From positions 1 through 48,862 of the forward strand of contig BCKE01000105.1 in the NCBI GenBank assembly GCA_001600495.1: a DNA stretch of 48,862 nucleotides, given 5' to 3'. Both the position numbers and the translations under genes were made by a program. The notes under the pieces were generated by a model. The model was not told where the DNA came from, ran no database searches, and saw nothing but the letters and a program-made list of their open reading frames with translations. The stretch is from Pilasporangium apinafurcum. Lineage: Eukaryota; Oomycota; Peronosporomycetes; Pythiales; Pythiaceae. This document shows positions 285 through 48,862 of the stretch, piece after piece (position 1 is the stretch's first letter; every line of letters begins with the position of its first letter).

Positions 285-740
285 GAAGAGAGAGACGTGG
301 TAGCAAGTGGGTGGAAAAGGAAAGATGTTTTTGTGGGTTCTAGAGCACGGAGAGTCCCAATAAGAGGTGCGTCGTGATCTTAGTACATCGTTTAGCTTGC
401 AAGTAAGGGGTAAGCGCAGTATCGGAATGTGCTTGACTTTGTGTTCGAGATCAGACGACATTACATACCTCAAAGTCATTTCAATACATTAAGAGGGAAA
501 ATAGTCAGAAATACATAGTTGCATATAAATACATGTGTAAAGGAAGAAAGTAGAAAGATGATTGTAATCCGATTAGGAAAACGTGGATGCAAAGGGAGCT
601 TAGAGGTAGTGCTAGCGAACTAAGTCTTCCATGTAATTCACTTTTCATTTTGCCATCGAGTTGCCACGTCCGCCTACCAACATCCTTGAAGTTCTTCGAA
701 TTTTGACCAATCAAAAATCTTACAGTCGACTTTCAGCCAA
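285..740. other. Outer intergenic DNA, nothing assigned (copy 1)
   Basis: About 450 bases without a recognisable gene. Several short open frames are present but none has protein-like composition or splice sites that connect it to a neighbour. Several ATTGG/CCAAT pentamers occur around 710-745. The mirror copy is 48407-48862. Confidence 0.4.
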
Positions 741-926
741 TCATCGTATCGTAAACCAAGTAATCGTCACAGAGCGTACCTCTTCACATGTGGCCTTCGT
801 ATAGCCCGTTAACTCGGGCATTATTACCAAGTTAGCGTAGGGTTTACGTCCTGACAGCAGGGTGACATTCTCGATGCCCTTGGTAATAGCACGCTTAAAA
901 ATTTGTAAGACTTTTATTAGAGAGGA
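741..926 (-). CDS. Orphan coding-looking exon (copy 1), unassigned
   Basis: Mirror copy of 48221-48406. Read on the minus strand it is an open 61-codon segment after a TATAG acceptor, with well-composed protein including the run VTLLSGRKPYANLVIMPEL and a TGA at the end. A donor-like GTACGC lies inside the exon just after the run KATCEE, so the exon may end earlier. I do not recognise the family. It could be the internal exon of a gene whose other exons are too short to see, or a gene fragment. Confidence 0.35.
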   Translation of the reverse strand, partial: SSLIKVLQIFKRAITKGIENVTLLSGRKPYANLVIMPELTGYTKATCEEVRSVTITWFTIR

Positions 927-1165
927 CTATACAGTCACCTCAGGGTGATAAGATCTTTTCTTCACCATATAAACCCTGTATCCTGCTACTGATGTGCATT
1001 CCACATTTGTGTTGTCGAGAGTGAATGACTGTGCATATCTTCAAACTTGCAATCCAAGTAATTTGTGTCGAACTGAATGCAATCACATACAAAGCTGAGA
1101 TGATGGAGATGACTAAGGTTAACTAGTATAGCAAATAATAATCCTACCGAGCGATAAATGAGAGT

Positions 1166-2779
1166 CTACACGTTAGTTGAGTGCATTGCCTGCTCCAATA
1201 ATATATTCTCGATCAATTGGTGACTCGCCGTGACATTCATCGCAATAAAGTTCAGCACAAAATTCGTCAGTTCACCCGTCTTCAACACTTGACTTCTATT
1301 GCATTCGCTAAAATCTGGAAACAGCCTAAAACACGTTTGTAAAAGCGTATACTCGAACGGAAGTGTCGTTGGCTTTCGAATAATAACGTAACCCTCCCCA
1401 TGAAAGTGATATCCTGGGGCTGGTTTCTGTGCAAACTCGATCGACTCGAATATCGTGGTCCAGATAACAATCACTCGGTCTTCTTCAATGTACCGCCGTA
1501 TAACTTGCTTCACACTGAAATCTGCGGTCGTGGCATTGATGTTTTTAATGTCTACTCTAAAACTTTCCAACACCGTATCATCTGTGCTGTCAGGGCTCTA
1601 TACATTCAACATCACGTGTTATATATTTCAAAAAAATGTAAGCGGGTTCCAATTGCAAAATAACTCTTACCTTTGCGTTTTTTCGATTATAAAATGATTG
1701 TGGTAGCCCATCCTTGTTGTGCGCAAAATGGTGCCACACCACTGTCGCTGTCGTGTGCATGTCAAACGGCAGGACCTTTGTCACAAATGTCTCCAAGTAT
1801 ATTCCGTCGGCTCCATCCTCTTTCACGTGGGCTTCGTTGTGCGAGTATTCCATTTGAGCGAGTCCGTTTGCTTCAAAAACAGCGTCAATAGTCGCGTGGC
1901 ATTTGTCCGCGTCTGCTAGTAGTTGTTTGTACATAACACGATCAGAATCACTGGGAGATGGGTCATGAACTCTTTTCGAGATGTTTCCAAAGCCTAACAT
2001 TTGACAAGTCTACATAATTGGCCACAGATTCACAAACAACTACGAGTTGGAGGAGGCAGCATAATGCAATTGTCAATCCGCCACAAAGTACGTACACGAG
2101 ATATTGTTCGCTTGCTGAGAATAGCTTGCAAGCTTTTTGCTATTTTCAATTGTGCTTCCAATACAAGCTTCAAGCGAATATTCTCTCGTTCTGCATCAAT
2201 CTGCTGATCGTATTGCCGTCGTGCGATATCTTTCCAAATGCTTATTGCCGACGATGGGCCTGAGAGGTCTTCAGTCGAACAATGCTGCACGATAGAATCC
2301 TGGCTGTCAGATGAAATGAGTGACTTCAAAGAAGCGCGTTGGCCCAACCGTATAGAGCGAGCATCACATTCATGTGGGGCTTTCTTTAATCGGTTCAACT
2401 GCTGCTCCAAGGCATGCACTTGATTACGCAAGTAGATCACTTCCTGCCTCCGCTCATCGCGCGCTTTATTCGGATTACTTTTCGTGTATTTTCTGATCCG
2501 TTTGTTTATCTTCGTCGTTAGTGTGACTTGCTGCTGCAATTGCTGGTGACTATTGCCGTTAGGTTTAACACCAAAATTCCCTTCTGTACCAACTTGAGCT
2601 ATGTCGTCCAACTGGAAGTTAGTTGTAGTCTGCAGGGAGTCAAATTCGCCCGCATCAGTCTGTAGAAGAGCGTCTGCTGCGTTGATTTCCTCTACAAATT
2701 CGTCCATAAATGACAGCGACGCGTCGAACATCGTCACTTCATCCTCGTCTTCATTCAAGAACGTCGGCATCTTTGTCAT
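1166..2779 (-). CDS. M96 mating-specific family protein, bZIP-like (copy 1)
   Basis: Left-arm copy of the gene at 46368-47981, with the same predicted protein. The minus-strand exons are 2096-2779, 1671-2009 and 1166-1597, all phase 0, giving 484 residues. It is divergent from the UTP23 copy starting at 3063 and shares a 283-bp intergenic region with it. See the right-arm entry for the domain description. Confidence 0.75.
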
Positions 2780-2834
2780 CTGAAATGAAAGCTAAAAGGG
2801 TGTATAAACCTACAAATTTTGCTTGTAAAATTAA

Positions 2835-2946
2835 ATTTTCCACCAATCATATGACTTTTTATCAAGCAGATAGGGTAGATTGTCAGATTTGATTCTTCAT
2901 CTTTCTTTTTGTATAGGTTCCCATAATTATTTTCCACCAATCATAT
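2835..2946. promoter_or_regulatory. Divergent promoter with duplicated 18-mer (copy 1)
   Basis: The 283-bp gap between the M96-family and UTP23 start codons carries an exact 18-bp direct repeat, ATTTTCCACCAATCATAT, at 2835-2852 and 2929-2946. Each copy contains a CCAAT pentamer. The placement between two divergent starts suggests a shared upstream element, but the binding factor is inferred only from the CCAAT core. Confidence 0.45.
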
Positions 2947-3062
2947 TTCGTAAAAATTGTAAAGTATGCCTGTTAGTTGATACCATCCATTTTTCCCAAA
3001 ATTTCTGGAACCCCAAACGACACACCAATAACCAATAAGTTGCTTTTGCTGGACGGGGGAAC

Positions 3063-3920
3063 ATGCGATATTTACGCGCTAAAGGGATCCGCAAAGCGCT
3101 ACGGCAGTTCCATTTCCTATGTGGCATCAAACCTCCATATAAGGCATGCAATTTCTGATGAAAACCATAAGCGATGCGAGAGGTTCTAACATATTTGTTT
3201 CTGTCACTTCTAGGTGCTGTTGGATGGCAATTTCATTGCCATGTGCATACAAATGAAAGTGGAGATCCGCGACCGCCTGCCGAAGCTGCTGCAGGTGAAA
3301 ACACACGAATGCGAGTATTTTATTCCCGCTGCTGCTCTGAAAGAGCTGGAGCTTCTCGGTGAAGCCCTGCGTCCAGCATTTGAAGTCGCACAGTCGTTCA
3401 AGGTTGTGGAAGTAGATGAAGAACAGAAAGCAAGCGAAGTGAATGTGACAAATGTCATTCAACGCATCATTGGTATGTCCAAGTAGATTGCAATGCGTCT
3501 CTGTATAGATTGCTTGAGTCTAAACATGCACTGGTGGTGATGGGGATTACAATAGGTGAGCGGAACGAAAAGAAATTCGTGGTAGCCACGCAAGAAGTAG
3601 AGTTGCGAAAGGTGCTGCGTGAGGTGCCTGGTGTGCCGTTGCTCTATCTCAATCGATCAGTGCTGGTATTTGAAGACATTTCCAAAGCGACGTTAGCGAT
3701 TGTGCGGCAGGAAGAAAAAGCCAAGATGTCGAAATTAGATGTAAACGAGAAGCGGAAACTCGAGCATGTCTACGCCAGCGACGAAAGCGGCGACAGCAAA
3801 CCACAAAACCAACCACCGCAGCGATTGAAGAAGAAAGCAAAAGGGCCGAATCCATTGTCGGTGAAGAAATCCACCAAGAAGAAAGTGCGATCCAGGGGCA
3901 AGAAGCAGAAAGAAAATTGA
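3063..3920 (+). CDS. UTP23: UTP23-like rRNA-processing PIN-domain protein (copy 1)
   Basis: UTP23 is a small-subunit processome factor of the FCF1/UTP23 PIN-like family and acts in the nucleolus in 18S rRNA maturation. The exons 3063-3143, 3214-3472 and 3556-3920 join to 234 residues, close to the usual size of about 250. The basic N-terminus (MRYLRAKGIRK) leads into PPYKVLLDGNFIAM, then LKELELLG, FVVATQE, PGVPLLYL and the lysine-rich tail with GPNPLSVKK, which is a UTP23 hallmark. Intron 1 (3144-3213) begins with GC, not GT (AAG|GCATGC), and ends TTCTAG; no GT donor restores the conserved PPYK-VLLDG junction. Intron 2 is GTATGT to AATAG. The stop is 67 bp from the stop of the convergent kinase gene. 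Confidence 0.88.
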
Positions 3921-3987
3921 AAATAATAATGATATTTGGTATGAGGCATTGCTGTTCTAACGGTTCTGACATAGGTTCTTTTCTTTC

Positions 3988-6403
3988 TTAGAAATCTTTG
4001 TCCCACTCACTGCCGTCGTCTGTATACGCTGTGGTCATGTCATCATCCATTATGCCATCAAATTTAGATGTATCCAAAGGATCGGAGAGCTTTGGTTTGT
4101 AAGGTGCCAGCTCTTTTTTCTTGTACATGTTGTCCCAGTTGATGGTGCTAAACCATGGATGCGCTCGAATTGCCCTGGCGCCACCATGTGTCACACCCAA
4201 GCGTTTCGTCAAATCGCGCTCCAGCAGCTTCGAGATGAGATCACGGCACGGCTCCGTCACCCACGCGGGGAACTGCACGGTCTCCTTAACGATGTTGCGA
4301 CAGATCTGCATCTGGTCACTTTGACCTGATCCGACAAACGGTGAGTGACCAACAATCATCTCGTAGATGAGCACACCCAACGCCCAGTAGTCAACACCCT
4401 TGTTATGGCCTTTACCAAGCACCAATTCTGGAGCCAGGTACTCCGGTGTGCCACAGAGTGTATAGGTGCGGTCTTCGACTTTCTTGGCAAAGCCAAAATC
4501 GACCACTTTCAAATATCCCTGCGGATCGATGAGTAAATTTTCTGGCTTAAGATCGCGGTAGATGATGCTACGTTCGTGTAAGTACTCGAGTGCCATCAGC
4601 ACGTGGGTCGCAAAGAACCGCGCGTGGTCATTTTGCAGTCTTCCTGGGGAGTTCGGAGTGCAGTGTAGGTACGTGAACAGCTCCCCACCTTGGACGAATT
4701 CGACTAGCAGATAAAGATTATTCTTGTCCTTGTAGGTCTGGTAGAGCTTGAGAATGAAGGGGTGGCTGCATTGTGCCATGATAGTTTTCTCAGCTAACAC
4801 ATTGTTCTGCTGCTTGTAGGCGACGATATTGGCCTTGTTGAGCACTTTCATCGCATACGGTGTGCCAGTTTTCTTGTGTTTGACCAGTTTCACGCGTCCG
4901 AACGTGCCTGAGCCAAGCGTCCGCAGTACTTCTAGTTCCTCCATCGCGATCTGCTCAGCGCGTTCCAATGCGTGTTTGCGTTCGTCAGCTTCCCTGTTCA
5001 AAATGTTTTGAATCGGTCCCAGTAGCTCCACGAACTTGGCTTGATTTAGCGACAAGCACTCCAACGCACCATTAGCAATCACATCTGCCTGGCGCGGTTC
5101 ATTATGCAGTAACGACATCTCGCCAAAGAAATTACCCGCCGACAATGTTGCGATTTGCCGTTGGTTGTTGCCATCACCATTGCTCCCGGAATTGTCAATG
5201 GATTTTTTGACGATTGTCGTACCGCTTTTGATAATGTAGAATGTCGTACCTTGTTCACCTTCTCGAATTACATACTCACCGTCCTTGAATGAAACCGGCT
5301 CAAGTGCTAGTAAGAGCTTATCTTTTTCGTATGAAGATAAATGTTTGAGGAACGGAATGGATTGGAGCACGCGCATGCTCATATTGCGGTCGATTACCTC
5401 GCGCAGGCTGCCCAAGAGATCATCAAACGCCTGTCGGTCCAGCGCAATAAGCGTCACGTCCGTCTCTGCCGTGACATTTGCAGCCCGGGGTTCATGGGTC
5501 ATCAAAGCACGTTCACCAAAGTAATCCCCATCGCCCAACCGTAGCGCCTCCATGCCGCGGACATCATCGCCCGCATCCGAGCACACGACCGTGCCCGACT
5601 TGATAATGTACAAAACGTTGCCTGAGTCGCCTTTCTTGATGATGCGCTCACCTTTGCGAAAGGAAACAACTTGTGCGGCTTCAGCCAATTGTCCGAGTTG
5701 GGTCTCAGTCAACGGCTTTAAGAGCGCCACGTTGCGCAGCGCGTTCTTACAGTCACCCAATTGGTCGTTCTGGTTTTTTGCTACCAACCGGCGGAACGTC
5801 ACACGATCGAGTGCCCACAGTCGTCCAGGTTGGGTACACATAATGGTTGCTGTGCGTGGGCAATTGTAGACCAGCGCTAGCTCTCCAAACGTCGAGCCCT
5901 TCTGGGCAGTGCTCACCTGTGTGCCATTCACATGGATGGCGAACATTCCAGATTCGACAACATAAAGGAAATCACCCGTGTCGCCTTCCTTGATGATGAC
6001 ATCGTTGACCGCTGCGGGTTTCTCAACCATCAGCTGCACGATCGTGTCGATATCGGCGCGGTTGATTGTTGCGAAGAGGAAATTGATCAGCAATGCCTGG
6101 AGAATGATGTCTTTTGACTCGTTCGACTTCGGAATGGCTGCTATTTCTAATGGCGCGTCAAATTGAACGCTTTCAGCGAAAATGTCGTTCCGCCTTCTCG
6201 CTGCGCGTTTTTCGCGCATGATGACACTAACCTTGTGATCTGGAGAAGTAGAACGAATTTATATGGTGAGCATATCCTCTATCAAGGCAAATTGGCGATG
6301 GGAATAGTCAAGTTTTACCTCCAACTACATCGGAAGCAGGATCAGCTAGCACTGCATCGAAATCTTTATCTTGCTTGGTGGGGACAGAGTTGATACAGCC
6401 CAT
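3988..6403 (-). CDS. PKG-like cyclic-nucleotide-dependent AGC kinase (copy 1)
   Basis: Left-arm copy of the kinase at 42744-45159, with the same predicted protein. The minus-strand exons are 6319-6403 and 3988-6239. The short first exon supplies the MGCINS N-terminus; starting instead at the internal methionine at 6219 would lose the acylation motif. It is convergent with UTP23 (67 bp apart) and divergent from the coiled-coil gene at 7043. Domains are described at the right-arm copy. Confidence 0.92.
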
Positions 6404-6639
6404 GGTTGTGTTGTGAAAAATGAAAAAACGGTAAAAGTAATAGCTTTACCCTGGGGGAGGTCACTCGCCGGTGCGGCGTCGTTTAGCAAAGTGAATGAAC
6501 GACACCGCTAAGGGAAGCAGTTGGTCAACTAACTCGACTGGTGCCGGATTTGGATCGACCCAACTTTCTGATCTGATGCTTTTCAATTTAAAGCGACAAG
6601 CGAAATGGTTGTGGTGCTGTCGATGGCTATTCTAGGCAT

Positions 6640-7000
6640 CCATGCGGATCAGAAAAAAAGCGGTTCTTGTCTATTTTTGACGATGAGCTCTCTACTTAGA
6701 CCGTCGATGTACCGGCAAATACATTGACCAGCAAGTTGAGCATGTGACCACCATATTAGCACGGAAGCAGATGAACTTCGGAAGTTCCATGAACCAATGA
6801 AGAATGAGACCAAATTCCTGATTTCCTACAGCTTTTGCATTGCGTCTTTGACATATTGGCGTAAATGGATTGCCTCTTGAATTGCCTTGAACACTTGCCT
6901 CAATGCTGCTCTTGTCGGTGATCGCAGTCAAATCCGTTTCGTAACGATTCAATTTTAGAATGGAAATCAGCAAAGACAGTTTGTTTTCTCTTCTATCGTG
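6640..7000 (-). pseudogene. Decayed or unassigned coding remnant (copy 1)
   Basis: Mirror of 42147-42507. On the minus strand three reading frames in succession contain protein-like runs (TDLTAITDKSSIEASVQ, then in the next frame AIQEAIHLRQYVKDAMQKL, then a stop and more protein-like sequence). This is what a frameshifted gene remnant looks like. I cannot name the parent family. A multi-exon gene with very small introns is a less likely alternative. Confidence 0.3.
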
Positions 7001-7042
7001 ACGCAGCCATCAAGTAAAGCCTTTGCAGTGCTTTGAAGCAGG

Positions 7043-8777
7043 ATGGACGTTAAGAGATCTCTACTATTACGCTCAAGTATCACTTCCCAGCGAACAGATG
7101 ATATCAGTGACGATCTCAGCGACGCCGATTATGATTATGGATATGAATCCTCTGTCCTCAGCATCAAGCCAGTGAGTAGGCCTATCCAAGTGTCCAATGA
7201 TGCATCATTGTCGCCTCGACGCTTGTCCATAGACTGGAACGACTCGGTCGATCGGTCAGGGATGGCTGAATTGTGTCAGTACGTGCAGCATTTGGAGACA
7301 GAGAAAAAGGATCTTCTAGCCCAAGTGCATTTCTTACAAGAGCAAGACGGAAAACTACAAATGAAGCTAAAGACATCGATTCAGCGGATCGAAGGGCTTG
7401 AGGTAGCGCTGAAAACGGCTGAAGCGAGTCGCTCGATTTGGCAGGACGAAAAACAAGCTATGCTAGCTTTACAGACCGCAGAAACTGAGCGGGTAACTGG
7501 ATTGGCGGCTCTTCTTCATGAGGCTCAGAAGAAATATGACGAAGCAGAGAAAGCACGACAGCAGGCGGTTTTCCGACTCAGTGCTATGCAGGCAACACTA
7601 ACAGAAACCACGACTCAGCAACTACTTTCTGAGTCATCAAGCACTCTACTAGGAAAATCGAACGTTGCATCGTTTGATACTAGCGTCAATTTCACACTGG
7701 GTGAGCATATAGAGAAGTATAAGCGAGAAATTGAGCTGCTGCGCCAACAACTGGAGCTCAAGGACGAGCACGCAATTGAGAAACAGAAGCGTGCGCTTGA
7801 TCTTGAGATCCGCAGCCTGCAATTGGAGCACGCGAGCGCGATAGAGAAAGTGAAATTGGAATGTGAGATCCGCCTGAGCGAATGGCGACATGAGGAGGCA
7901 GTTCGAGCCAAAGAGATGGAGTGTGCCATGGAAGAAGATCGATACAGTATTCGTCTGGAGATGAAGCACGCCACTCAGCGCGCACAAATCGATCAGCGTG
8001 TATCGTTCCTACAGGCACAGTCCGCTCTAGCTGCCCAACAGTCATCATTGGGTTGCCATCATCACTATGGAGAGAGCGATTTTTCCTTTGGTACACTAGA
8101 CGAAGTACTCGTGCGAATGCAAAAGGATCAGCTGCGCACGCGACGCTTTGAAGCACTCAAGAAATCGCTGCTGATCCGCAATGCCAAGCTCGAAAAAGTA
8201 ATGAAGGCGTTCTTATGCCGCTGGAAAATCCAGATTTCAACCGAGAAGATCCTGCAACTGAATGCTGTTCTGCATATGCATCGCATCGTCTCGCATCTGA
8301 AAAGACGGCAGAAACGCGCGTTCTTTAACGAGTGGAAGGCGCAGATCAAATTGTCGCAAGTGCATGCCTTCCAAAGTCAAGCTCTTAGTTGCTGGAACCG
8401 CATGCTTGCCGTCGAACGAATCAACCACGTGTTGCAACAATATGCGGTACGTACTTGTGTTGTCATCATCACTGTCTCCTGCGATGTGTGTCAGATTTGA
8501 TGCTAAAAAATCTTGTTATATTCGTTTTGTTTGGCAGGTAAAGCGATCTGCATTGTACTTTCACCATTGGCGGGTACAGACTATGCTTACCAGTGGGACA
8601 ATATTGGAGAACATGGGCGATGCTTCTGGCGGTGATGGGAACAATAATACTATAGTCACCGGGAGTGATGATGTTCGCGCTCTCCAACAAGAGATTGAAA
8701 AACTTCATGAGCAGTTGGCATCCGCCAAATCCGAGGCGTGGCGGTACAAGCGACAACTACTCAAGCAATTCCTCTAA
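7043..8777 (+). CDS. Coiled-coil protein with Sfi1-like Trp repeats (copy 1)
   Basis: Exons 7043-8446 and 8538-8777 (GTACGT to GGCAG intron, phase 0) give 547 residues. After an acidic, serine-rich N-terminus (about residues 1-75) come long heptad-rich coiled coils (about 78-190 and 225-330). Spaced Trp helices follow: FLCRWKIQ, FFNEWKAQI, LSCWNRML and, in exon 2, YFHHWRVQ, then a last short coiled coil ending LLKQFL. Spaced F/W-x3-W helices resemble Sfi1 repeats that bind centrin at basal bodies and centrosomes. That role is inference, since many coiled-coil proteins carry such helices. The start is the ATG after GAAGCAGG and is the first in frame. Confidence 0.8.
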
Positions 8778-8860
8778 CTTTCATGTCACTCATTTAATCC
8801 CTAAAGTGCAGCTATCCCAATTCCAATCTTTTCATCTTGTTGTATAGAATGAGTTCTCTA

Positions 8861-9136
8861 TTATCGTAGCTTAGCCATACGCCTAATTTGTTTCCTCCTC
8901 ACTTTGCCAAATAGAGGGTCAAGGGTTCGTATTGTAGTGAATGGAATTTTCATTCCTCGCTTTGGTCGCGTCTTTTTGATCATGGACAATTCGCTCTCCA
9001 CAATGTTCGCAGAGAAGTTGCTCTTCCTACCGACCACCACACAAAACGACTTCACTTTCGTGCCAAATTCGAGAATGACGGCGCGAATGCCTGTAGAAGG
9101 AATGCACTTTCTATGATGGATTTGGCCGAGAGATTC
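8861..9136 (-). CDS. Unassigned basic exon (copy 1)
   Basis: Mirror copy of 40011-40286. The minus-strand frame is open from an ACAG acceptor to a TAA, about 91 codons, and very basic at the C-terminus (KVRRKQIRRMAKLR). No upstream exon could be fixed. It lies between the 3' ends of the coiled-coil gene and the copine gene. Confidence 0.45.
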   Translation of the reverse strand, partial: ESLGQIHHRKCIPSTGIRAVILEFGTKVKSFCVVVGRKSNFSANIVESELSMIKKTRPKRGMKIPFTTIRTLDPLFGKVRRKQIRRMAKLR

Positions 9137-9317
9137 CTGTCATTAAGGTGGCAATAAAGCCAATTGAGTTGATCTTGTTGCAATTGAGAGACAAAGTTGG
9201 ATGATTGAGAGCGAATGGGCAGCTATACTAGGTGTTAGGAACTCAAAGATTCAGATCATTGTCATGTATTATTAATCTGTGATGATTGGGACAGGAAGTT
9301 GACAATATTCTCCACAA

Positions 9318-12092
9318 TTATCCACGATAGCCAGGGTAGCCAGGAGCTGCACCATTCTGCGGAGGTGGCTGCTGATAACTTTGAGCAGGATATCCTTGCG
9401 GTGGGTAACCTTGAGGAGCATAGCCTTGCGAATAGCCCTGAGGTGCTCCTTGGGGAGGATATCCGTATCCTTGTTGGGGAGGGTAGCCTTGCGCTGGATA
9501 TCCCTGCGGAGCATACCCTTGAGGTGCATATCCCTGTGGTGCTTGCTGACCATAGCCGGGGTAACCTTGTGGTGGCTGTTGACCTTGAACTGGATAGCCA
9601 TGGGGAGCCGGCTGTTGACCCTGAGGGGGAGGAGCTTGTTGTTGTGACTGAGGATTTGCAACTGATGGTGCTGGTTGTGCCGAAGCATCCACTGGTGCGG
9701 CACCAGCAGGATGTGGAGCGGCTGCAGACCCCACTGGAGTCGCACCAGGTTCTGCGAACGTCTGGAATGTTGGTGGGATGGATGGATTTGGAGCAATTCC
9801 GCGGACTCGCATGTATTGGCAGAGCTGGTTTGGGATTTCCGCTAATGTTTCACTCGTAAGAGCCGCAGGATTCCCAGCGAAGCGACTGTAGGGGACAAAT
9901 TGGACACTAACAAACGCAAGAAGAGGATTAACATCGCTGTAAAGACTAATCATGTATAGCAATAAACACTCACATATCACGAGTAGCAGTTCGTCCGCGT
10001 CGGTCACGGAGGTTGCGACCGTCACCATCCAAGGCAGTCATGGATGAGAAATCAGCTGGCCCCACGCCGATAATCACAATCTGCAGTGAAAACAATATTC
10101 ACCAATAATTAACCACACTGTCGATATTCGTATGTATACACTGGAGAAGTTACCGAAAGTGGCGTAGTGTTGGCAGCTTGAACCAGCGCATCAATGGTGT
10201 CAGGCATGTCCATAATTGCACCGTCTAAAAGAACACCAAAGATGAAACTTTAGTTTTCAACGTACAAGGTTACCTAAGTACTTCGACAACTGTACCTGTG
10301 ATGATGAGCAAAACGAAGTACTTTTGCGTCCGTGGATCACTCATACGGTTAGCAATTTGCATTGTCTGGATAATGATACTGCAAGCAACATCAGGGACAG
10401 GAAAGTGAGGAAGTCAATAAACAAGGATAATCCATCTTTTTAGATACGCGCAACTTACGGAGCGAAGCAGGTGGGACCGTGCAGCTGGATATGACCAAGG
10501 GACGCCGTGTACAGCTGGGGGGGAATAGAGTCATGAGGTTAGTGATGAATATGTGAAGCATGCCATGCTATGTAAGAAAGTGTGCCATACCTGCAGAATA
10601 CCTTGAGCCATGTAAACTTCAGGATTTGAAGGGTTCAAATTCAATGGAAAGCAGTGATCGACAGCGTGTGCTCCAGGTGGAATGCCACCAAAGCCGTACA
10701 CAGGAATCATCTTGTCGTGGTCATACTCCTGGAGAATAGATGCTGTAGCTGAAATGGCGTGTTGGTACTATTACAGTTACATCAACATTATCCAATTATA
10801 AGGACACAATCGAACAATGACTTATCGATCCAGGGATACGAAAATGATGGGTATCTTACTTGATTTGGTCCACGAGGATCGATATAGTGAAGGCTGAAGG
10901 AGAAAGAATGCGAGTGATGAGAAACAATGCTACAAGTTATTAATATAATACGCAATGTTACCTTCTTGGATCGTGAGGAGGGCCATTCGAAGCAGTGTAA
11001 TCAATACCAACGATCAAACTCATCTCTAATCCACCACGAACTACACAAATAGAAGTTAAACCACACGATATCGTCATTAAGCAACCATCGACAGAAGTTA
11101 ATATGAAATGAACATTCGACTCTATACTTACGGTAATCGACGAAAGTGTGCTGGCGGAAGAGTTGCAACTCCACAATCGTCAACAGCCCGGCATTCGTGT
11201 ACTTTTTCCCCTTCTTGCGTTGTAGTTCTTCGTTATTCAGCACCAGATTGCGACCAATGTGCGATTGTAGCTCCTCCAGAGTCGTATTGACCTGACCAAT
11301 CAATCTTGCTTTTCCAATAGTCTCTTCATCAAATACTTGAAAGCACAATGGACGCTTGTAGTCGCCGTTACAGAGCTGTTGCACCGAGATTTCAAATGAT
11401 CTCCAGTTCGGATTGAGGTTATTGTCGATCGTCTCAGTTTTATACACTTGCATAAGCGTGTTATCCGGACGGAAGCGATTGATCACCAGAAAGGGATCAC
11501 TCTTGCTGAAAAATCCATCCAAATTTGGGAGGTTTGACCCCGAGAACCGCACACGTAGTGCTTCGCTCGACGATTTGACCTCTTCGGCGCGCACCAACAG
11601 TCCGCCCTGATGCTTTGAACTCTGTTTCCCACGCGTCAACAGAAACGTTCCACTTTGTCCAGGAGCACCCATGAGCTTTCCCAGCGAAAATTCCGCACCG
11701 CCGATGAAATCCTGGTGCGAGAGCTTGCTGGATTTGCTGTCTTCATCGTAAATTTCCACCTTAAATTCCTGCTGGAGCTCGAAATAGTAGTCCACCATAA
11801 AGAGTTTCGCCCATTTTGGGTTTAGATCGTCCTTTAGTGCTTCCGTGCGACCCAACTCACGCCAATTCCCACCCTCTACTCATGGTCAGAGATTCCAACT
11901 GTTAGTACCAACGATCCACATTAGCAAGCCACAATTCTACAATGGAATACCTCGAACAAACAGCACAGCTAAGGGGTCGGATTTCGAGATGATATCGCGG
12001 TCTTTTAAATTCTTGGCGCTCAGCGAGAGTTCTATTTTGGATGTAGGCTGGTACTGGCGCTGCTGATATGCTGTGGATGGCTGCATATACAT
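9318..12092 (-). CDS. Copine, C2-C2-vWA protein (copy 1)
   Basis: Left-arm copy of the copine at 37055-39829, with the same predicted 693-residue protein. The minus-strand exons in coding order are 11951-12092, 11132-11875, 10962-11040, 10860-10893, 10591-10767, 10459-10514, 10296-10378, 10154-10224, 9974-10080 and 9318-9906. The last exon encodes the P/Q/G/Y-rich repeats. Because of that biased composition the opposite strand is also open for about 190 codons, which is not a gene. Confidence 0.93.
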
Positions 12093-12239
12093 TCTTGCTT
12101 CGTTGTTTTGCTTAGCTCTTGTGACTTCTTCCCCTTTTGACTCTCTTCCTTCTTGCTAATCTCTCCTTCAACGGCAGAGTGTTGGTCACTGCACCCATTC
12201 CCCCCTCCAGAAAATCCAGTGATTGGGTTTTATTGGACT

Positions 12240-12386
12240 ATGGCGTTGGATGAGGATTTACTGGAGATTATCAAAATACGGCTTAACCATGTGGACAAAT
12301 TTGAAAAATCTGTCGACTCCCCTACTGTCCACGGATACTTTTCCTACCCTCTATTCTCTTCCTACATTCTTTTCTTCCCGTCGTGA
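12240..12386 (+). CDS. Possible truncated first exon, unassigned (copy 1)
   Basis: An ATG-initiated frame encodes MALDEDLLEIIKIRLNHVDK followed by an acidic/polar segment, then runs into low-quality sequence and a stop. A GT follows the good part (ACT|GTCCAC). It abuts the 3' end of the inverted Fanzor relic, so it could be the first exon of a gene cut off by that insertion. The family is not recognised. The mirror copy is 36761-36907. Confidence 0.3.
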   Translation: MALDEDLLEIIKIRLNHVDKFEKSVDSPTVHGYFSYPLFSSYILFFPS

Positions 12387-13473: not shown

Positions 13474-13500
13474 CTGTTCGATCCTTTTGGGGATCGAAGA

Positions 13501-14626: not shown

Positions 14627-14782
14627 AAGTAGAAAAAAGCATTATGTGGGCATCTTCGTGAAACACGAGCATCCCTTCAAGCAAACACAACAATTGAAAC
14701 ATTTGCCATGGATACAGTGCAATTGAGCGATTGATATAACGTAGATTGAAAACAGCACAGTCACGTGTAATACAAACTCGCG

Positions 14783-34364: not shown

Positions 34365-34520
34365 CGCGAGTTTGTATTACACGTGACTGTGCTGTTTTCA
34401 ATCTACGTTATATCAATCGCTCAATTGCACTGTATCCATGGCAAATGTTTCAATTGTTGTGTTTGCTTGAAGGGATGCTCGTGTTTCACGAAGATGCCCA
34501 CATAATGCTTTTTTCTACTT

Positions 34521-35646: not shown

Positions 35647-35673
35647 TCTTCGATCCCCAAAAGGATCGAACAG

Positions 35674-36796: not shown

Positions 36797-36907
36797 AGGG
36801 TAGGAAAAGTATCCGTGGACAGTAGGGGAGTCGACAGATTTTTCAAATTTGTCCACATGGTTAAGCCGTATTTTGATAATCTCCAGTAAATCCTCATCCA
36901 ACGCCAT
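36761..36907 (-). CDS. Possible truncated first exon, unassigned (copy 2)
   Basis: Mirror of 12240-12386. It lies directly downstream of the Fanzor remnant, with its 5' end toward the copine gene. Confidence 0.3.
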   Translation of the reverse strand: MALDEDLLEIIKIRLNHVDKFEKSVDSPTVHGYFSYPLFSSYILFFPS

Positions 36908-37054
36908 AGTCCAATAAAACCCAATCACTGGATTTTCTGGAGGGGGGAATGGGTGCAGTGACCAACACTCTGCCGTTGAAGGAGAGATTAGCAAGAAGGA
37001 AGAGAGTCAAAAGGGGAAGAAGTCACAAGAGCTAAGCAAAACAACGAAGCAAGA

Positions 37055-39829: not shown

Positions 39830-40010
39830 TTGTGGAGAATATTGTCAACTTCCTGTCCCAATCATCACAGATTAATAATACATGACAATGATCTGAATCT
39901 TTGAGTTCCTAACACCTAGTATAGCTGCCCATTCGCTCTCAATCATCCAACTTTGTCTCTCAATTGCAACAAGATCAACTCAATTGGCTTTATTGCCACC
40001 TTAATGACAG

Positions 40011-40286
40011 GAATCTCTCGGCCAAATCCATCATAGAAAGTGCATTCCTTCTACAGGCATTCGCGCCGTCATTCTCGAATTTGGCACGAAAGTGAAGTCG
40101 TTTTGTGTGGTGGTCGGTAGGAAGAGCAACTTCTCTGCGAACATTGTGGAGAGCGAATTGTCCATGATCAAAAAGACGCGACCAAAGCGAGGAATGAAAA
40201 TTCCATTCACTACAATACGAACCCTTGACCCTCTATTTGGCAAAGTGAGGAGGAAACAAATTAGGCGTATGGCTAAGCTACGATAA
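40011..40286 (+). CDS. Unassigned basic exon (copy 2)
   Basis: An open frame from an ACAG acceptor (40007-40010) to TAA 40284-40286. It encodes about 91 residues with GIRAVILEFGTKVKSFCVVV, NFSANIVESELSMIKK and a very basic end KVRRKQIRRMAKLR. It reads as a genuine C-terminal exon. The 5' exon should lie between 39830 and 40000 but no start codon with a matching donor is convincing. The family is not recognised; basic composition would suit a nucleic-acid-binding or ribosomal protein, which is inference only. Confidence 0.45.
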   Translation, partial: ESLGQIHHRKCIPSTGIRAVILEFGTKVKSFCVVVGRKSNFSANIVESELSMIKKTRPKRGMKIPFTTIRTLDPLFGKVRRKQIRRMAKLR

Positions 40287-40369
40287 TAGAGAACTCATTC
40301 TATACAACAAGATGAAAAGATTGGAATTGGGATAGCTGCACTTTAGGGATTAAATGAGTGACATGAAAG

Positions 40370-42104
40370 TTAGAGGAATTGCTTGAGTAGTTGTCGCTTG
40401 TACCGCCACGCCTCGGATTTGGCGGATGCCAACTGCTCATGAAGTTTTTCAATCTCTTGTTGGAGAGCGCGAACATCATCACTCCCGGTGACTATAGTAT
40501 TATTGTTCCCATCACCGCCAGAAGCATCGCCCATGTTCTCCAATATTGTCCCACTGGTAAGCATAGTCTGTACCCGCCAATGGTGAAAGTACAATGCAGA
40601 TCGCTTTACCTGCCAAACAAAACGAATATAACAAGATTTTTTAGCATCAAATCTGACACACATCGCAGGAGACAGTGATGATGACAACACAAGTACGTAC
40701 CGCATATTGTTGCAACACGTGGTTGATTCGTTCGACGGCAAGCATGCGGTTCCAGCAACTAAGAGCTTGACTTTGGAAGGCATGCACTTGCGACAATTTG
40801 ATCTGCGCCTTCCACTCGTTAAAGAACGCGCGTTTCTGCCGTCTTTTCAGATGCGAGACGATGCGATGCATATGCAGAACAGCATTCAGTTGCAGGATCT
40901 TCTCGGTTGAAATCTGGATTTTCCAGCGGCATAAGAACGCCTTCATTACTTTTTCGAGCTTGGCATTGCGGATCAGCAGCGATTTCTTGAGTGCTTCAAA
41001 GCGTCGCGTGCGCAGCTGATCCTTTTGCATTCGCACGAGTACTTCGTCTAGTGTACCAAAGGAAAAATCGCTCTCTCCATAGTGATGATGGCAACCCAAT
41101 GATGACTGTTGGGCAGCTAGAGCGGACTGTGCCTGTAGGAACGATACACGCTGATCGATTTGTGCGCGCTGAGTGGCGTGCTTCATCTCCAGACGAATAC
41201 TGTATCGATCTTCTTCCATGGCACACTCCATCTCTTTGGCTCGAACTGCCTCCTCATGTCGCCATTCGCTCAGGCGGATCTCACATTCCAATTTCACTTT
41301 CTCTATCGCGCTCGCGTGCTCCAATTGCAGGCTGCGGATCTCAAGATCAAGCGCACGCTTCTGTTTCTCAATTGCGTGCTCGTCCTTGAGCTCCAGTTGT
41401 TGGCGCAGCAGCTCAATTTCTCGCTTATACTTCTCTATATGCTCACCCAGTGTGAAATTGACGCTAGTATCAAACGATGCAACGTTCGATTTTCCTAGTA
41501 GAGTGCTTGATGACTCAGAAAGTAGTTGCTGAGTCGTGGTTTCTGTTAGTGTTGCCTGCATAGCACTGAGTCGGAAAACCGCCTGCTGTCGTGCTTTCTC
41601 TGCTTCGTCATATTTCTTCTGAGCCTCATGAAGAAGAGCCGCCAATCCAGTTACCCGCTCAGTTTCTGCGGTCTGTAAAGCTAGCATAGCTTGTTTTTCG
41701 TCCTGCCAAATCGAGCGACTCGCTTCAGCCGTTTTCAGCGCTACCTCAAGCCCTTCGATCCGCTGAATCGATGTCTTTAGCTTCATTTGTAGTTTTCCGT
41801 CTTGCTCTTGTAAGAAATGCACTTGGGCTAGAAGATCCTTTTTCTCTGTCTCCAAATGCTGCACGTACTGACACAATTCAGCCATCCCTGACCGATCGAC
41901 CGAGTCGTTCCAGTCTATGGACAAGCGTCGAGGCGACAATGATGCATCATTGGACACTTGGATAGGCCTACTCACTGGCTTGATGCTGAGGACAGAGGAT
42001 TCATATCCATAATCATAATCGGCGTCGCTGAGATCGTCACTGATATCATCTGTTCGCTGGGAAGTGATACTTGAGCGTAATAGTAGAGATCTCTTAACGT
42101 CCAT
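40370..42104 (-). CDS. Coiled-coil protein with Sfi1-like Trp repeats (copy 2)
   Basis: Right-arm copy of the gene at 7043-8777, with the same predicted 547 residues. The minus-strand exons are 40701-42104 and 40370-40609. It is divergent from the kinase gene, with 639 bp between start codons that include the decayed stretch at 42147-42507. Confidence 0.8.
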
Positions 42105-42146
42105 CCTGCTTCAAAGCACTGCAAAGGCTTTACTTGATGGCTGCGT

Positions 42147-42507
42147 CACGATAGAAGAGAAAACAAACTGTCTTTGCTGATTTCCATTCTAAAATTGAAT
42201 CGTTACGAAACGGATTTGACTGCGATCACCGACAAGAGCAGCATTGAGGCAAGTGTTCAAGGCAATTCAAGAGGCAATCCATTTACGCCAATATGTCAAA
42301 GACGCAATGCAAAAGCTGTAGGAAATCAGGAATTTGGTCTCATTCTTCATTGGTTCATGGAACTTCCGAAGTTCATCTGCTTCCGTGCTAATATGGTGGT
42401 CACATGCTCAACTTGCTGGTCAATGTATTTGCCGGTACATCGACGGTCTAAGTAGAGAGCTCATCGTCAAAAATAGACAAGAACCGCTTTTTTTCTGATC
42501 CGCATGG
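42147..42507 (+). pseudogene. Decayed or unassigned coding remnant (copy 2)
   Basis: Successive protein-like runs in three frames: VFADFHSKIESLRNGFD, TDLTAITDKSSIEASVQ and AIQEAIHLRQYVKDAMQKL, then a TAG and further open sequence (AQLAGQCICRYIDGLSRELI). The order without a common frame suggests a frameshifted old gene. No family was recognised. Confidence 0.3.
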
Positions 42508-42715
42508 ATGCCTAGAATAGCCATCGACAGCACCACAACCATTTCGCTTGTCGCTTTAAATTGAAAAGCATCAGATCAGAAAGTTGGGTCGATCCAAATC
42601 CGGCACCAGTCGAGTTAGTTGACCAACTGCTTCCCTTAGCGGTGTCGTTCATTCACTTTGCTAAACGACGCCGCACCGGCGAGTGACCTCCCCCAGGGTA
42701 AAGCTATTACTTTTA

Positions 42716-42743
42716 CCGTTTTTTCATTTTTCACAACACAACC
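42716..42743 (+). promoter_or_regulatory. Inr-like pyrimidine-rich start region of the kinase gene (copy 2)
   Basis: TTTTTTCATTTTTCACAACA directly before the kinase start codon resembles the oomycete Inr core (TCATTTT) and leaves a very short 5' UTR. This is a motif match only; the mirror copy is 6404-6431. Confidence 0.4.
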
Positions 42744-45159
42744 ATGGGCTGTATCAACTCTGTCCCCACCAAGCAAGATAAAGATTTCGATGCAGTGCTA
42801 GCTGATCCTGCTTCCGATGTAGTTGGAGGTAAAACTTGACTATTCCCATCGCCAATTTGCCTTGATAGAGGATATGCTCACCATATAAATTCGTTCTACT
42901 TCTCCAGATCACAAGGTTAGTGTCATCATGCGCGAAAAACGCGCAGCGAGAAGGCGGAACGACATTTTCGCTGAAAGCGTTCAATTTGACGCGCCATTAG
43001 AAATAGCAGCCATTCCGAAGTCGAACGAGTCAAAAGACATCATTCTCCAGGCATTGCTGATCAATTTCCTCTTCGCAACAATCAACCGCGCCGATATCGA
43101 CACGATCGTGCAGCTGATGGTTGAGAAACCCGCAGCGGTCAACGATGTCATCATCAAGGAAGGCGACACGGGTGATTTCCTTTATGTTGTCGAATCTGGA
43201 ATGTTCGCCATCCATGTGAATGGCACACAGGTGAGCACTGCCCAGAAGGGCTCGACGTTTGGAGAGCTAGCGCTGGTCTACAATTGCCCACGCACAGCAA
43301 CCATTATGTGTACCCAACCTGGACGACTGTGGGCACTCGATCGTGTGACGTTCCGCCGGTTGGTAGCAAAAAACCAGAACGACCAATTGGGTGACTGTAA
43401 GAACGCGCTGCGCAACGTGGCGCTCTTAAAGCCGTTGACTGAGACCCAACTCGGACAATTGGCTGAAGCCGCACAAGTTGTTTCCTTTCGCAAAGGTGAG
43501 CGCATCATCAAGAAAGGCGACTCAGGCAACGTTTTGTACATTATCAAGTCGGGCACGGTCGTGTGCTCGGATGCGGGCGATGATGTCCGCGGCATGGAGG
43601 CGCTACGGTTGGGCGATGGGGATTACTTTGGTGAACGTGCTTTGATGACCCATGAACCCCGGGCTGCAAATGTCACGGCAGAGACGGACGTGACGCTTAT
43701 TGCGCTGGACCGACAGGCGTTTGATGATCTCTTGGGCAGCCTGCGCGAGGTAATCGACCGCAATATGAGCATGCGCGTGCTCCAATCCATTCCGTTCCTC
43801 AAACATTTATCTTCATACGAAAAAGATAAGCTCTTACTAGCACTTGAGCCGGTTTCATTCAAGGACGGTGAGTATGTAATTCGAGAAGGTGAACAAGGTA
43901 CGACATTCTACATTATCAAAAGCGGTACGACAATCGTCAAAAAATCCATTGACAATTCCGGGAGCAATGGTGATGGCAACAACCAACGGCAAATCGCAAC
44001 ATTGTCGGCGGGTAATTTCTTTGGCGAGATGTCGTTACTGCATAATGAACCGCGCCAGGCAGATGTGATTGCTAATGGTGCGTTGGAGTGCTTGTCGCTA
44101 AATCAAGCCAAGTTCGTGGAGCTACTGGGACCGATTCAAAACATTTTGAACAGGGAAGCTGACGAACGCAAACACGCATTGGAACGCGCTGAGCAGATCG
44201 CGATGGAGGAACTAGAAGTACTGCGGACGCTTGGCTCAGGCACGTTCGGACGCGTGAAACTGGTCAAACACAAGAAAACTGGCACACCGTATGCGATGAA
44301 AGTGCTCAACAAGGCCAATATCGTCGCCTACAAGCAGCAGAACAATGTGTTAGCTGAGAAAACTATCATGGCACAATGCAGCCACCCCTTCATTCTCAAG
44401 CTCTACCAGACCTACAAGGACAAGAATAATCTTTATCTGCTAGTCGAATTCGTCCAAGGTGGGGAGCTGTTCACGTACCTACACTGCACTCCGAACTCCC
44501 CAGGAAGACTGCAAAATGACCACGCGCGGTTCTTTGCGACCCACGTGCTGATGGCACTCGAGTACTTACACGAACGTAGCATCATCTACCGCGATCTTAA
44601 GCCAGAAAATTTACTCATCGATCCGCAGGGATATTTGAAAGTGGTCGATTTTGGCTTTGCCAAGAAAGTCGAAGACCGCACCTATACACTCTGTGGCACA
44701 CCGGAGTACCTGGCTCCAGAATTGGTGCTTGGTAAAGGCCATAACAAGGGTGTTGACTACTGGGCGTTGGGTGTGCTCATCTACGAGATGATTGTTGGTC
44801 ACTCACCGTTTGTCGGATCAGGTCAAAGTGACCAGATGCAGATCTGTCGCAACATCGTTAAGGAGACCGTGCAGTTCCCCGCGTGGGTGACGGAGCCGTG
44901 CCGTGATCTCATCTCGAAGCTGCTGGAGCGCGATTTGACGAAACGCTTGGGTGTGACACATGGTGGCGCCAGGGCAATTCGAGCGCATCCATGGTTTAGC
45001 ACCATCAACTGGGACAACATGTACAAGAAAAAAGAGCTGGCACCTTACAAACCAAAGCTCTCCGATCCTTTGGATACATCTAAATTTGATGGCATAATGG
45101 ATGATGACATGACCACAGCGTATACAGACGACGGCAGTGAGTGGGACAAAGATTTCTAA
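42744..45159 (+). CDS. PKG-like cyclic-nucleotide-dependent AGC kinase (copy 2)
   Basis: A serine/threonine kinase with its cyclic-nucleotide regulatory region on the same chain, as in cGMP-dependent kinases. Exons 42744-42828 and 42908-45159 give 778 residues. The N-terminus MGCINS fits N-myristoylation (Gly2) plus palmitoylation (Cys3). ARRRNDIFAES (about 42-52) looks like a pseudosubstrate, aligning with the PKA-RI type RRGAISAE with Asp47 in the phospho-acceptor place. Three cNMP domains follow, with phosphate cassettes FGELAL...PRTAT (146-160), FGERAL...PRAAN (269-283) and FGEMSL...PRQAD (400-414). The kinase domain has GSGTFGRV near 471-478, Lys493, Asp591 of YRDLKPEN, DFG at 609-611, T-loop TYTLCGTPEY with Thr622, and the PKG-like end SEWDKDF. 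Confidence 0.95.
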
Positions 45160-45226
45160 GAAAGAAAAGAACCTATGTCAGAACCGTTAGAACAGCAATG
45201 CCTCATACCAAATATCATTATTATTT

Positions 45227-46084
45227 TCAATTTTCTTTCTGCTTCTTGCCCCTGGATCGCACTTTCTTCTTGGTGGATTTCTTCACCGACAATGGATTCG
45301 GCCCTTTTGCTTTCTTCTTCAATCGCTGCGGTGGTTGGTTTTGTGGTTTGCTGTCGCCGCTTTCGTCGCTGGCGTAGACATGCTCGAGTTTCCGCTTCTC
45401 GTTTACATCTAATTTCGACATCTTGGCTTTTTCTTCCTGCCGCACAATCGCTAACGTCGCTTTGGAAATGTCTTCAAATACCAGCACTGATCGATTGAGA
45501 TAGAGCAACGGCACACCAGGCACCTCACGCAGCACCTTTCGCAACTCTACTTCTTGCGTGGCTACCACGAATTTCTTTTCGTTCCGCTCACCTATTGTAA
45601 TCCCCATCACCACCAGTGCATGTTTAGACTCAAGCAATCTATACAGAGACGCATTGCAATCTACTTGGACATACCAATGATGCGTTGAATGACATTTGTC
45701 ACATTCACTTCGCTTGCTTTCTGTTCTTCATCTACTTCCACAACCTTGAACGACTGTGCGACTTCAAATGCTGGACGCAGGGCTTCACCGAGAAGCTCCA
45801 GCTCTTTCAGAGCAGCAGCGGGAATAAAATACTCGCATTCGTGTGTTTTCACCTGCAGCAGCTTCGGCAGGCGGTCGCGGATCTCCACTTTCATTTGTAT
45901 GCACATGGCAATGAAATTGCCATCCAACAGCACCTAGAAGTGACAGAAACAAATATGTTAGAACCTCTCGCATCGCTTATGGTTTTCATCAGAAATTGCA
46001 TGCCTTATATGGAGGTTTGATGCCACATAGGAAATGGAACTGCCGTAGCGCTTTGCGGATCCCTTTAGCGCGTAAATATCGCAT
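45227..46084 (-). CDS. UTP23: UTP23-like rRNA-processing PIN-domain protein (copy 2)
   Basis: Right-arm copy of the gene at 3063-3920, with the same predicted 234-residue protein. The minus-strand exons are 46004-46084, 45675-45933 and 45227-45591; intron 1 again has the GC donor. It is tail-to-tail with the kinase gene and divergent from the M96-family gene. Confidence 0.88.
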
Positions 46085-46200
46085 GTTCCCCCGTCCAGCA
46101 AAAGCAACTTATTGGTTATTGGTGTGTCGTTTGGGGTTCCAGAAATTTTGGGAAAAATGGATGGTATCAACTAACAGGCATACTTTACAATTTTTACGAA

Positions 46201-46312
46201 ATATGATTGGTGGAAAATAATTATGGGAACCTATACAAAAAGAAAGATGAAGAATCAAATCTGACAATCTACCCTATCTGCTTGATAAAAAGTCATATGA
46301 TTGGTGGAAAAT
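46201..46312. promoter_or_regulatory. Divergent promoter with duplicated 18-mer (copy 2)
   Basis: Mirror of 2835-2946. The 18-mer ATATGATTGGTGGAAAAT lies at 46201-46218 and 46295-46312, between the start codons at 46084 (minus) and 46368 (plus). Confidence 0.45.
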
Positions 46313-46367
46313 TTAATTTTACAAGCAAAATTTGTAGGTTTATACACCCTTTTAGCTTTCATTTCAG

Positions 46368-47981
46368 ATGACAAAGATGCCGACGTTCTTGAATGAAGAC
46401 GAGGATGAAGTGACGATGTTCGACGCGTCGCTGTCATTTATGGACGAATTTGTAGAGGAAATCAACGCAGCAGACGCTCTTCTACAGACTGATGCGGGCG
46501 AATTTGACTCCCTGCAGACTACAACTAACTTCCAGTTGGACGACATAGCTCAAGTTGGTACAGAAGGGAATTTTGGTGTTAAACCTAACGGCAATAGTCA
46601 CCAGCAATTGCAGCAGCAAGTCACACTAACGACGAAGATAAACAAACGGATCAGAAAATACACGAAAAGTAATCCGAATAAAGCGCGCGATGAGCGGAGG
46701 CAGGAAGTGATCTACTTGCGTAATCAAGTGCATGCCTTGGAGCAGCAGTTGAACCGATTAAAGAAAGCCCCACATGAATGTGATGCTCGCTCTATACGGT
46801 TGGGCCAACGCGCTTCTTTGAAGTCACTCATTTCATCTGACAGCCAGGATTCTATCGTGCAGCATTGTTCGACTGAAGACCTCTCAGGCCCATCGTCGGC
46901 AATAAGCATTTGGAAAGATATCGCACGACGGCAATACGATCAGCAGATTGATGCAGAACGAGAGAATATTCGCTTGAAGCTTGTATTGGAAGCACAATTG
47001 AAAATAGCAAAAAGCTTGCAAGCTATTCTCAGCAAGCGAACAATATCTCGTGTACGTACTTTGTGGCGGATTGACAATTGCATTATGCTGCCTCCTCCAA
47101 CTCGTAGTTGTTTGTGAATCTGTGGCCAATTATGTAGACTTGTCAAATGTTAGGCTTTGGAAACATCTCGAAAAGAGTTCATGACCCATCTCCCAGTGAT
47201 TCTGATCGTGTTATGTACAAACAACTACTAGCAGACGCGGACAAATGCCACGCGACTATTGACGCTGTTTTTGAAGCAAACGGACTCGCTCAAATGGAAT
47301 ACTCGCACAACGAAGCCCACGTGAAAGAGGATGGAGCCGACGGAATATACTTGGAGACATTTGTGACAAAGGTCCTGCCGTTTGACATGCACACGACAGC
47401 GACAGTGGTGTGGCACCATTTTGCGCACAACAAGGATGGGCTACCACAATCATTTTATAATCGAAAAAACGCAAAGGTAAGAGTTATTTTGCAATTGGAA
47501 CCCGCTTACATTTTTTTGAAATATATAACACGTGATGTTGAATGTATAGAGCCCTGACAGCACAGATGATACGGTGTTGGAAAGTTTTAGAGTAGACATT
47601 AAAAACATCAATGCCACGACCGCAGATTTCAGTGTGAAGCAAGTTATACGGCGGTACATTGAAGAAGACCGAGTGATTGTTATCTGGACCACGATATTCG
47701 AGTCGATCGAGTTTGCACAGAAACCAGCCCCAGGATATCACTTTCATGGGGAGGGTTACGTTATTATTCGAAAGCCAACGACACTTCCGTTCGAGTATAC
47801 GCTTTTACAAACGTGTTTTAGGCTGTTTCCAGATTTTAGCGAATGCAATAGAAGTCAAGTGTTGAAGACGGGTGAACTGACGAATTTTGTGCTGAACTTT
47901 ATTGCGATGAATGTCACGGCGAGTCACCAATTGATCGAGAATATATTATTGGAGCAGGCAATGCACTCAACTAACGTGTAG
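46368..47981 (+). CDS. M96 mating-specific family protein, bZIP-like (copy 2)
   Basis: This belongs to a family expanded in oomycetes and named after a Phytophthora mating-induced gene; its members combine a bZIP-like N-terminus with a conserved C-terminal region. Exons 46368-47051, 47138-47476 and 47550-47981, all phase 0, give 484 residues. Residues 1-65 are acidic, resembling an activation region. The basic stretch at about 92-112 (KINKRIRKYTK, then NPNKARDERRQE) leads into the zipper-like YLRNQVHALEQQLNRLKK. The C-terminal two thirds carry ETFVTKVLPFD, RVIVIWTTIFES and PAPGYHFHGEGYVIIR. A nuclear regulatory role is inferred. The initial ATG follows a TTTCAG, so a 5' noncoding exon is possible. 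Confidence 0.77.
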
Positions 47982-48220
47982 ACTCTCATTTATCGCTCGG
48001 TAGGATTATTATTTGCTATACTAGTTAACCTTAGTCATCTCCATCATCTCAGCTTTGTATGTGATTGCATTCAGTTCGACACAAATTACTTGGATTGCAA
48101 GTTTGAAGATATGCACAGTCATTCACTCTCGACAACACAAATGTGGAATGCACATCAGTAGCAGGATACAGGGTTTATATGGTGAAGAAAAGATCTTATC
48201 ACCCTGAGGTGACTGTATAG

Positions 48221-48406
48221 TCCTCTCTAATAAAAGTCTTACAAATTTTTAAGCGTGCTATTACCAAGGGCATCGAGAATGTCACCCTGCTGTCAGGACG
48301 TAAACCCTACGCTAACTTGGTAATAATGCCCGAGTTAACGGGCTATACGAAGGCCACATGTGAAGAGGTACGCTCTGTGACGATTACTTGGTTTACGATA
48401 CGATGA
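48221..48406 (+). CDS. Orphan coding-looking exon (copy 2), unassigned
   Basis: Mirror of 741-926. It is downstream of, and on the same strand as, the M96-family gene stop at 47981, but in-frame joining was not found. It could equally be the start of a feature continuing beyond the window. Confidence 0.35.
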   Translation, partial: SSLIKVLQIFKRAITKGIENVTLLSGRKPYANLVIMPELTGYTKATCEEVRSVTITWFTIR

Positions 48407-48862
48407 TTGGCTGAAAGTCGACTGTAAGATTTTTGATTGGTCAAAATTCGAAGAACTTCAAGGATGTTGGTAGGCGGACGTGGCAACTCGATGGCAAAAT
48501 GAAAAGTGAATTACATGGAAGACTTAGTTCGCTAGCACTACCTCTAAGCTCCCTTTGCATCCACGTTTTCCTAATCGGATTACAATCATCTTTCTACTTT
48601 CTTCCTTTACACATGTATTTATATGCAACTATGTATTTCTGACTATTTTCCCTCTTAATGTATTGAAATGACTTTGAGGTATGTAATGTCGTCTGATCTC
48701 GAACACAAAGTCAAGCACATTCCGATACTGCGCTTACCCCTTACTTGCAAGCTAAACGATGTACTAAGATCACGACGCACCTCTTATTGGGACTCTCCGT
48801 GCTCTAGAACCCACAAAAACATCTTTCCTTTTCCACCCACTTGCTACCACGTCTCTCTCTTC
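48407..48862. other. Outer intergenic DNA, nothing assigned (copy 2)
   Basis: Mirror of 285-740. No recognisable gene; a 69-codon ATG-initiated frame at 48433-48642 has poor composition and no splice context. Confidence 0.4.

Follow-up and report, generated by a model that had tools for sequence, protein, structure and literature searches.

Contig C105 of the Pilasporangium apinafurcum assembly GCA_001600495.1 (BCKE01000105.1) carries two exactly matching inverted arms of 19,911 bp on either side of a core of 8,756 bp. The window analysed here is the complete contig, 48,862 bp in length. We weakly prefer to read this structure as a fold-back inverted segmental duplication of the nuclear genome that is both real and recent, a reading that we hold at somewhat less than an even chance. 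That the arm is truly present twice in the organism has about an even chance. The preference has three grounds: the derived one of the two inner junctions does not have the usual shape of an artefact, other structures of this kind exist in the same assembly, and identical arms longer than the sequencing reads would be expected to stop a contig in just this manner. A graph misjoin, a misread heterozygous inversion and an amplification chimera are less probable alternatives; these explanations are weighed below.

The mirror was tested by self-BLAST and by base-by-base comparison, with position x paired with position 49147-x. Over the full 19,911 bp there are 0 mismatches and 0 gaps between the arms. 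An exact mirror of this length cannot be due to chance, and it is the only inverted repeat in the window at the cut-off used for the self-alignment. Its inner edges are sharp: inward of 20196 the mirror match drops to the chance level within a few bases. The pairing rule, the outer limits (285 and 48862), the inner coordinates (20196 and 28951) and the core size given in the initial annotation all proved correct. That annotation had also seen no net indel over 19.9 kb, as borne out by the gap count, and the self-alignment with a mismatch count that it had proposed as a check is the one given here.

The core is unrepeated in the window and occurs once in the assembly, which comprises 36,473,033 bp in 136 contigs; partial relatives of the core, at 68-73% identity, lie on contigs C41 and C57. 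When dispersed repeats and short weak matches are set aside, full-length matches of the segments 1-3000, 2900-12200 and 14000-20195 are found in C105 only, each twice (positions 1-284 once). The segment 12201-13999 is mostly dispersed repeat; of its 914 candidate matches, 38 were scored, a set in which the window itself does not appear. There is no N anywhere in the window. The contig ends with the last base of the right arm; the sole outer flank is the 284 bp to the left of the mirror. The 19.9 kb is thus a lower bound for the arms, which may extend further. A telomeric minichromosome with both ends alike was considered and rejected, as no telomere-like repeat (TTTAGGG/CCCTAAA, the telomere motif) is present within 150 bases of either contig end. 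As to the identity of the genome, matches to the Elicitin family, which is typical of oomycetes, number 50 in the assembly versus 0 in 14 control genomes. A search for 5.8S rRNA returned nothing.

The inner junctions give the structure a direction. The one on the right lies inside a continuous gene with a PAP2 domain. Its exons, with edges read by eye, are placed at about 29385-29151 (exon 1), 29044-28952 (exon 2) and from 28876 onward (exon 3). Related PAP2-domain genes, three intact-looking and one decayed, form a tandem cluster at C57:8800-15900, and the blocks corresponding to exons 1, 2 and 3 follow each other in the same order in three of these tandem paralogs. Because the right junction is situated inside a continuous gene with the exon layout of its paralogs, it is judged, from sequence, to be native. 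The left junction is judged on the same kind of evidence to be derived. There the PAP2 copy is without the segment, situated in the core, to which the PAP2 match belongs; its reading frame enters unrelated sequence and, after a short extension, terminates at a stop ending at 20281. Since the right junction is in a continuous gene, one arm would be ancestral and the other a copy with a new end. A shared-word check, limited to the contig and so lacking the core's native left neighbour, detected no short inverted repeat at the junction.

The fold-back duplication would have proceeded as follows. In the native order, a left neighbour would be followed by the core and then by the arm. A broken or stalled end at the left edge of the core would fold back on its own chromosome and pair within the PAP2 gene, at a point some 8.8 kb further in. 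Outward copying from this point would yield the order arm', core, arm, with the single-copy core as the loop. Five Pfam-supported genes or more would be doubled in this way and one PAP2 gene would be copied in part. The contig would stop within the arms or at their end, presumably because reads are unable to cross identical arms of at least 20 kb.

If real, C105 would be an inverted duplication with a single-copy spacer, which is an already known kind. Human fold-back inverted duplications had a single-copy spacer of 766-70,466 bp in 21/21 sequenced junctions, according to the portion of the report drawn on here (Hermetz et al. 2014, PMC3907307). As in those cases with a disomic spacer, the assembly shows two near-identical copies in inverted orientation and a spacer in normal copy number, present once, whose 8,756 bp fall inside the range of 0.77-70 kb. 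The human cases described there, however, are on the megabase scale and are joined to terminal deletions, whereas the arms in C105 measure at least 19.9 kb. Other systems resemble C105 less closely or in other respects. Yeast ODIRA amplicons also contain inverted copies, but they are described as interstitial inverted triplications arising at short interrupted inverted repeats (excerpted text of PMC4689423), while two copies are seen in C105 and the shared-word check gave no such repeat. The palindromic blocks of Folsomia candida and Adineta vaga are likewise blocks of genes set head to head in one scaffold; those of the springtail cover a wide range of synonymous divergence in the excerpt of PMC5490193, in contrast to the zero divergence in C105, where the outer flank measures 284 bp on the left and is absent from the right. 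In Phytophthora sojae, near-telomere duplications provide a case of segmental duplication in an oomycete, but they are cross-chromosome, with transposons suggested as mediators in the passages available from PMC11139960, whereas the C105 copies are inverted within one contig without telomere-like ends. No title on an inverted duplication or palindrome in an oomycete turned up among the listed results of the literature searches, which is not proof of absence.

Near-identical inverted pairs are also present elsewhere in the assembly. The best documented consists of C6:5620-9643 and C6:11011-15034, which lie in a contig of 941 kb and have arms of 4,024 bp separated by a spacer of 1,367 bp. A single mismatch, nine bases in from the edge, distinguishes the two arms, and their outer flanks differ from each other. 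Apart from one repeat and relatives at 73-74%, these arms are otherwise single-copy. They carry the gene of a trypsin-like protease together with a long frame that has sub-threshold F-box and LRR matches only, the C-terminus of which is unlike between the two copies. A second pair, C4:431625-432318 and 432644-433337, has arms of 694 bp with 4 mismatches and a spacer of 325 bp. Sampled bases are all alike in two further inverted pairs: C19:217820-218071 and 236189-236440 (252/252, in a contig of 542 kb), and C51:27723-28023 and 102276-102576 (301/301, about 74 kb apart in a contig of 309 kb). Two candidate pairs, C8:146065-146343 with 147711-147989 and C24:453302-453562 with 455845-456105, were noticed by equal Elicitin-family score only. 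The pairs on C6, C4, C19 and C51 were met by chance during the repeat and elicitin searches rather than in a systematic scan, and no rate follows from them. The broader proposal that this oomycete genome holds many very recent inverted segmental duplications, with C105 the largest among them, and that fold-back copying with a single-copy spacer is a main route of its gene doubling, is in our opinion unlikely.

Several observations weigh against a fold-back duplication. Because both arms reach the contig ends, the arm is nowhere seen next to two different neighbours. The derived junction coincides exactly with the splice boundary between exon 2 and the intron, for which the model offers no mechanism; this placement may be chance. 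Three inverted pairs were measured from end to end; that of C105 exceeds the others in length and alone is free of mismatches, and at the mismatch rate of the C6 pair the probability of 0 differences in 19,911 bp would be 0.007. Self-comparison of six other small contigs, in which some parts were masked, C104 and C112 were incomplete and shorter pairs like that of C4 would escape, gave no inverted pair of at least 700 bp at 90% or more. A direct pair at C17:238665-238979 and 255916-256230 differs by 2 mismatches in 315, so that the recent duplications of this assembly include the direct type as well as the inverted. Finally, long stretches are shared between separate contigs. C136:1-9027 equals C36:318501-327527 exactly, and the two diverge abruptly after 9027 (18 of the 100 bases from C136:9001 differ in an ungapped comparison). 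C116 (29,360 bp) matches the inverted sequence C103:22086-51260 at 5/5 places sampled, where the 2,819 bp compared contain a single mismatch, and extends 185 bp past the end of C103. C105 shows the same kind of offset, of 284 bp, between its two ends. On sequence evidence, C116 could be either a redundant contig or a very recent duplicate, and both this pair and C136/C36 look like re-used or alternative assembly paths.

This sharing bears on the age of the arms. The initial annotation had offered an extremely recent duplication as one reading of the near-perfect identity. Identity is no evidence of extreme recency in an assembly in which other contigs share long exact stretches (C136/C36, and C116/C103 as sampled), since it may reflect nothing more than the double use of one path. 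The copies in C105 are exactly alike and end at the contig ends without two separate outer flanks, as expected of a re-used path. Dating by divergence (formal 95% bound 1.5e-4) was dropped, as the identity may stem from the assembly. Zero divergence gives no safe age.

One alternative that dispenses with a duplication is a heterozygous inversion of the 8.76-kb core. One haplotype would read X-core-arm and the other X-(inverted core)-arm, the arm thus adjoining the right edge of the core in the former and the left edge in the latter, and the assembler would have walked arm'-core-arm, writing a single arm twice. No extra DNA is needed in such a scheme, both junctions could have read support, and the exactness of the arms as well as the absence of X from the contig are accounted for. 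The exact stretches shared between contigs, which resemble alternative paths, lend it some support, the remainder following from graph logic only. By itself, it leaves unexplained why both arms stop at nearly the same point. Moreover, no contig with X plus any part of the core was found, the core being present once in the assembly, and the PAP2 gene of the other haplotype would have to be cut. We consider both the inversion and this walk through it doubtful.

A false join between the left edge of the core and the inner end of the arm, with the same arm reads laid down twice, is another explanation that we rate as improbable without dismissing it; the same holds for its proposed sources, a misassembly or an inverted chimera from whole-genome amplification. 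It would fit the exact identity, the position of both arms at contig ends, the small and isolated contig and the exact sharing seen elsewhere in the assembly. Amplified DNA is known to give palindromes and artificial inverted duplications: the excerpted text of PMC6218980 reports palindromes in 44-48% of the reads from two amplified Arabidopsis samples, versus 0.5% in unamplified material, as well as artificial inverted duplications in an assembly of the gorilla Y made from amplified DNA. The present DNA is not known to have been amplified. Nor are the C6 and C4 pairs of the chimera kind, since they carry mismatches and C6 has distinct flanks. C105 does resemble amplification and fold-back artefacts in being inverted sequence in a long-read assembly (PMC6218980, PMC12870357). 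In the class of fold-back read artefacts delimited in the consulted part of PMC12870357, however, the second segment lies on the other strand within 200 bp (one example has about 2 kb between the segments), with no long single-copy core, whereas the arms of C105 are 8,756 bp apart. A plain palindrome from a missed adapter or a library fold-back was judged unlikely given this single-copy core. The sequence by itself does not separate the three readings put forward in the initial annotation (a very recent duplication, a palindrome kept uniform by gene conversion and an assembly fold-back), and the last is unlikely in its plain library form.

An old palindrome kept uniform by gene conversion, the core flipping at times, is very improbable: exact arms around an unrelated core are the look of such palindromes, and palindromic gene blocks are reported from a springtail (11) and, by citation in the same paper, from a rotifer (17; excerpt of PMC5490193), but nothing in C105 shows age, and the truncated PAP2 copy, identical as far as it goes, is explained equally well by a recent origin.

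Coordinates of the features are collected in Table 1. Five genes per arm have Pfam support, and perhaps eight genes in all would be doubled by the proposed fold-back. The arm frames 1166-1597, 2030-2791 and 7037-8500 gave no Pfam support when scanned; further arm frames are located at 1590-2009, 8301-8777 and 9318-10037. Three dispersed repeats are present in each arm. A query with positions 1-3000 gave 48 matches in the genome, 2 of them within C105. The longest repeat (12257-13962) recurs in at least 37 other places in the genome at 81-87% and has one weak, sub-threshold match to HTH_OrfB_IS605. By eye we take it to be TnpB/Fanzor-like. A fragment of this repeat at C10:131288-131944 is 99% identical. 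In the core, the ERCC4-domain protein found no relative when compared with bacterial/archaeal contigs and viral contigs.

Table 1. Features of the 48,862-bp window, with their coordinates, strand and supporting evidence
Feature	Coordinates	Strand	Evidence or remark
Left contig end outside the mirror	1..284	.	Query 1-290 matches itself only, once in the genome
Left arm, inverted copy	285..20195	+	0 mismatches to 28952-48862
Short dispersed repeat close to the arm's outer end	396..772	.	Mirrored at 48375-48751
UTP23/FCF1-like gene	3420..3920	+	PF04900, PF24779; mirrored at 45227-45727
Cyclic-nucleotide-binding protein kinase gene	3988..6258	-	PF00069 and PF00027, 3 stretches; mirrored at 42889-45159
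C2-domain gene	11001..11879	-	PF00168; mirrored at 37268-38146
Dispersed repeat of about 1.7 kb with broken coding remains	12257..13962	.	Mirrored at 35185-36890
MtN3/SWEET sugar transporter gene	15965..16612	+	PF03083; mirrored at 32535-33182
Dispersed short repeat inside the arm	16950..17374	.	Mirrored at 31773-32197
APP1-like phosphatase exon	17754..18050	-	PF09949; mirrored at 31097-31393
Truncated 5' PAP2 copy, exons 1 and 2 only	19762..20195	+	ORFs 19753-20106 and 20087-20281
Left inner junction (judged derived)	20195..20196	.	PAP2 gene breaks off exactly after exon 2; what follows is the flank 3' of the Exo_endo_phos gene
Genes of the single-copy core	20196..28951	.	Exo_endo_phos, ribosomal protein S10p/S20e, FAD/NAD-binding oxidoreductase, ERCC4-domain, 3' part of the PAP2 gene (Pfam)
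PAP2-domain gene across the right junction	28497..29394	-	PF01569 in 28497-28931; paralog alignments
Right inner junction (judged native)	28951..28952	.	Boundary of exon 2 and intron, CAAG/GTTTGT, in the continuous PAP2 gene
Right arm, copy in apparently native contact with the core	28952..48862	-	Ends at the contig end

If C105 is an artefact, the gene counts of this genome are inflated by redundant sequence and cleaning is needed. If it is real, at least five genes, including that of the cyclic-nucleotide-binding kinase, were doubled in one step, and the structure left behind could flip the core by recombination. In the downy mildew Peronospora effusa, the mechanism behind copy-number changes of gene clusters is, in the words of the authors, 'yet to be discovered' (excerpted text of PMC11540230). 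The shape of C105, if real, would point to fold-back copying as a route of duplication in oomycetes.

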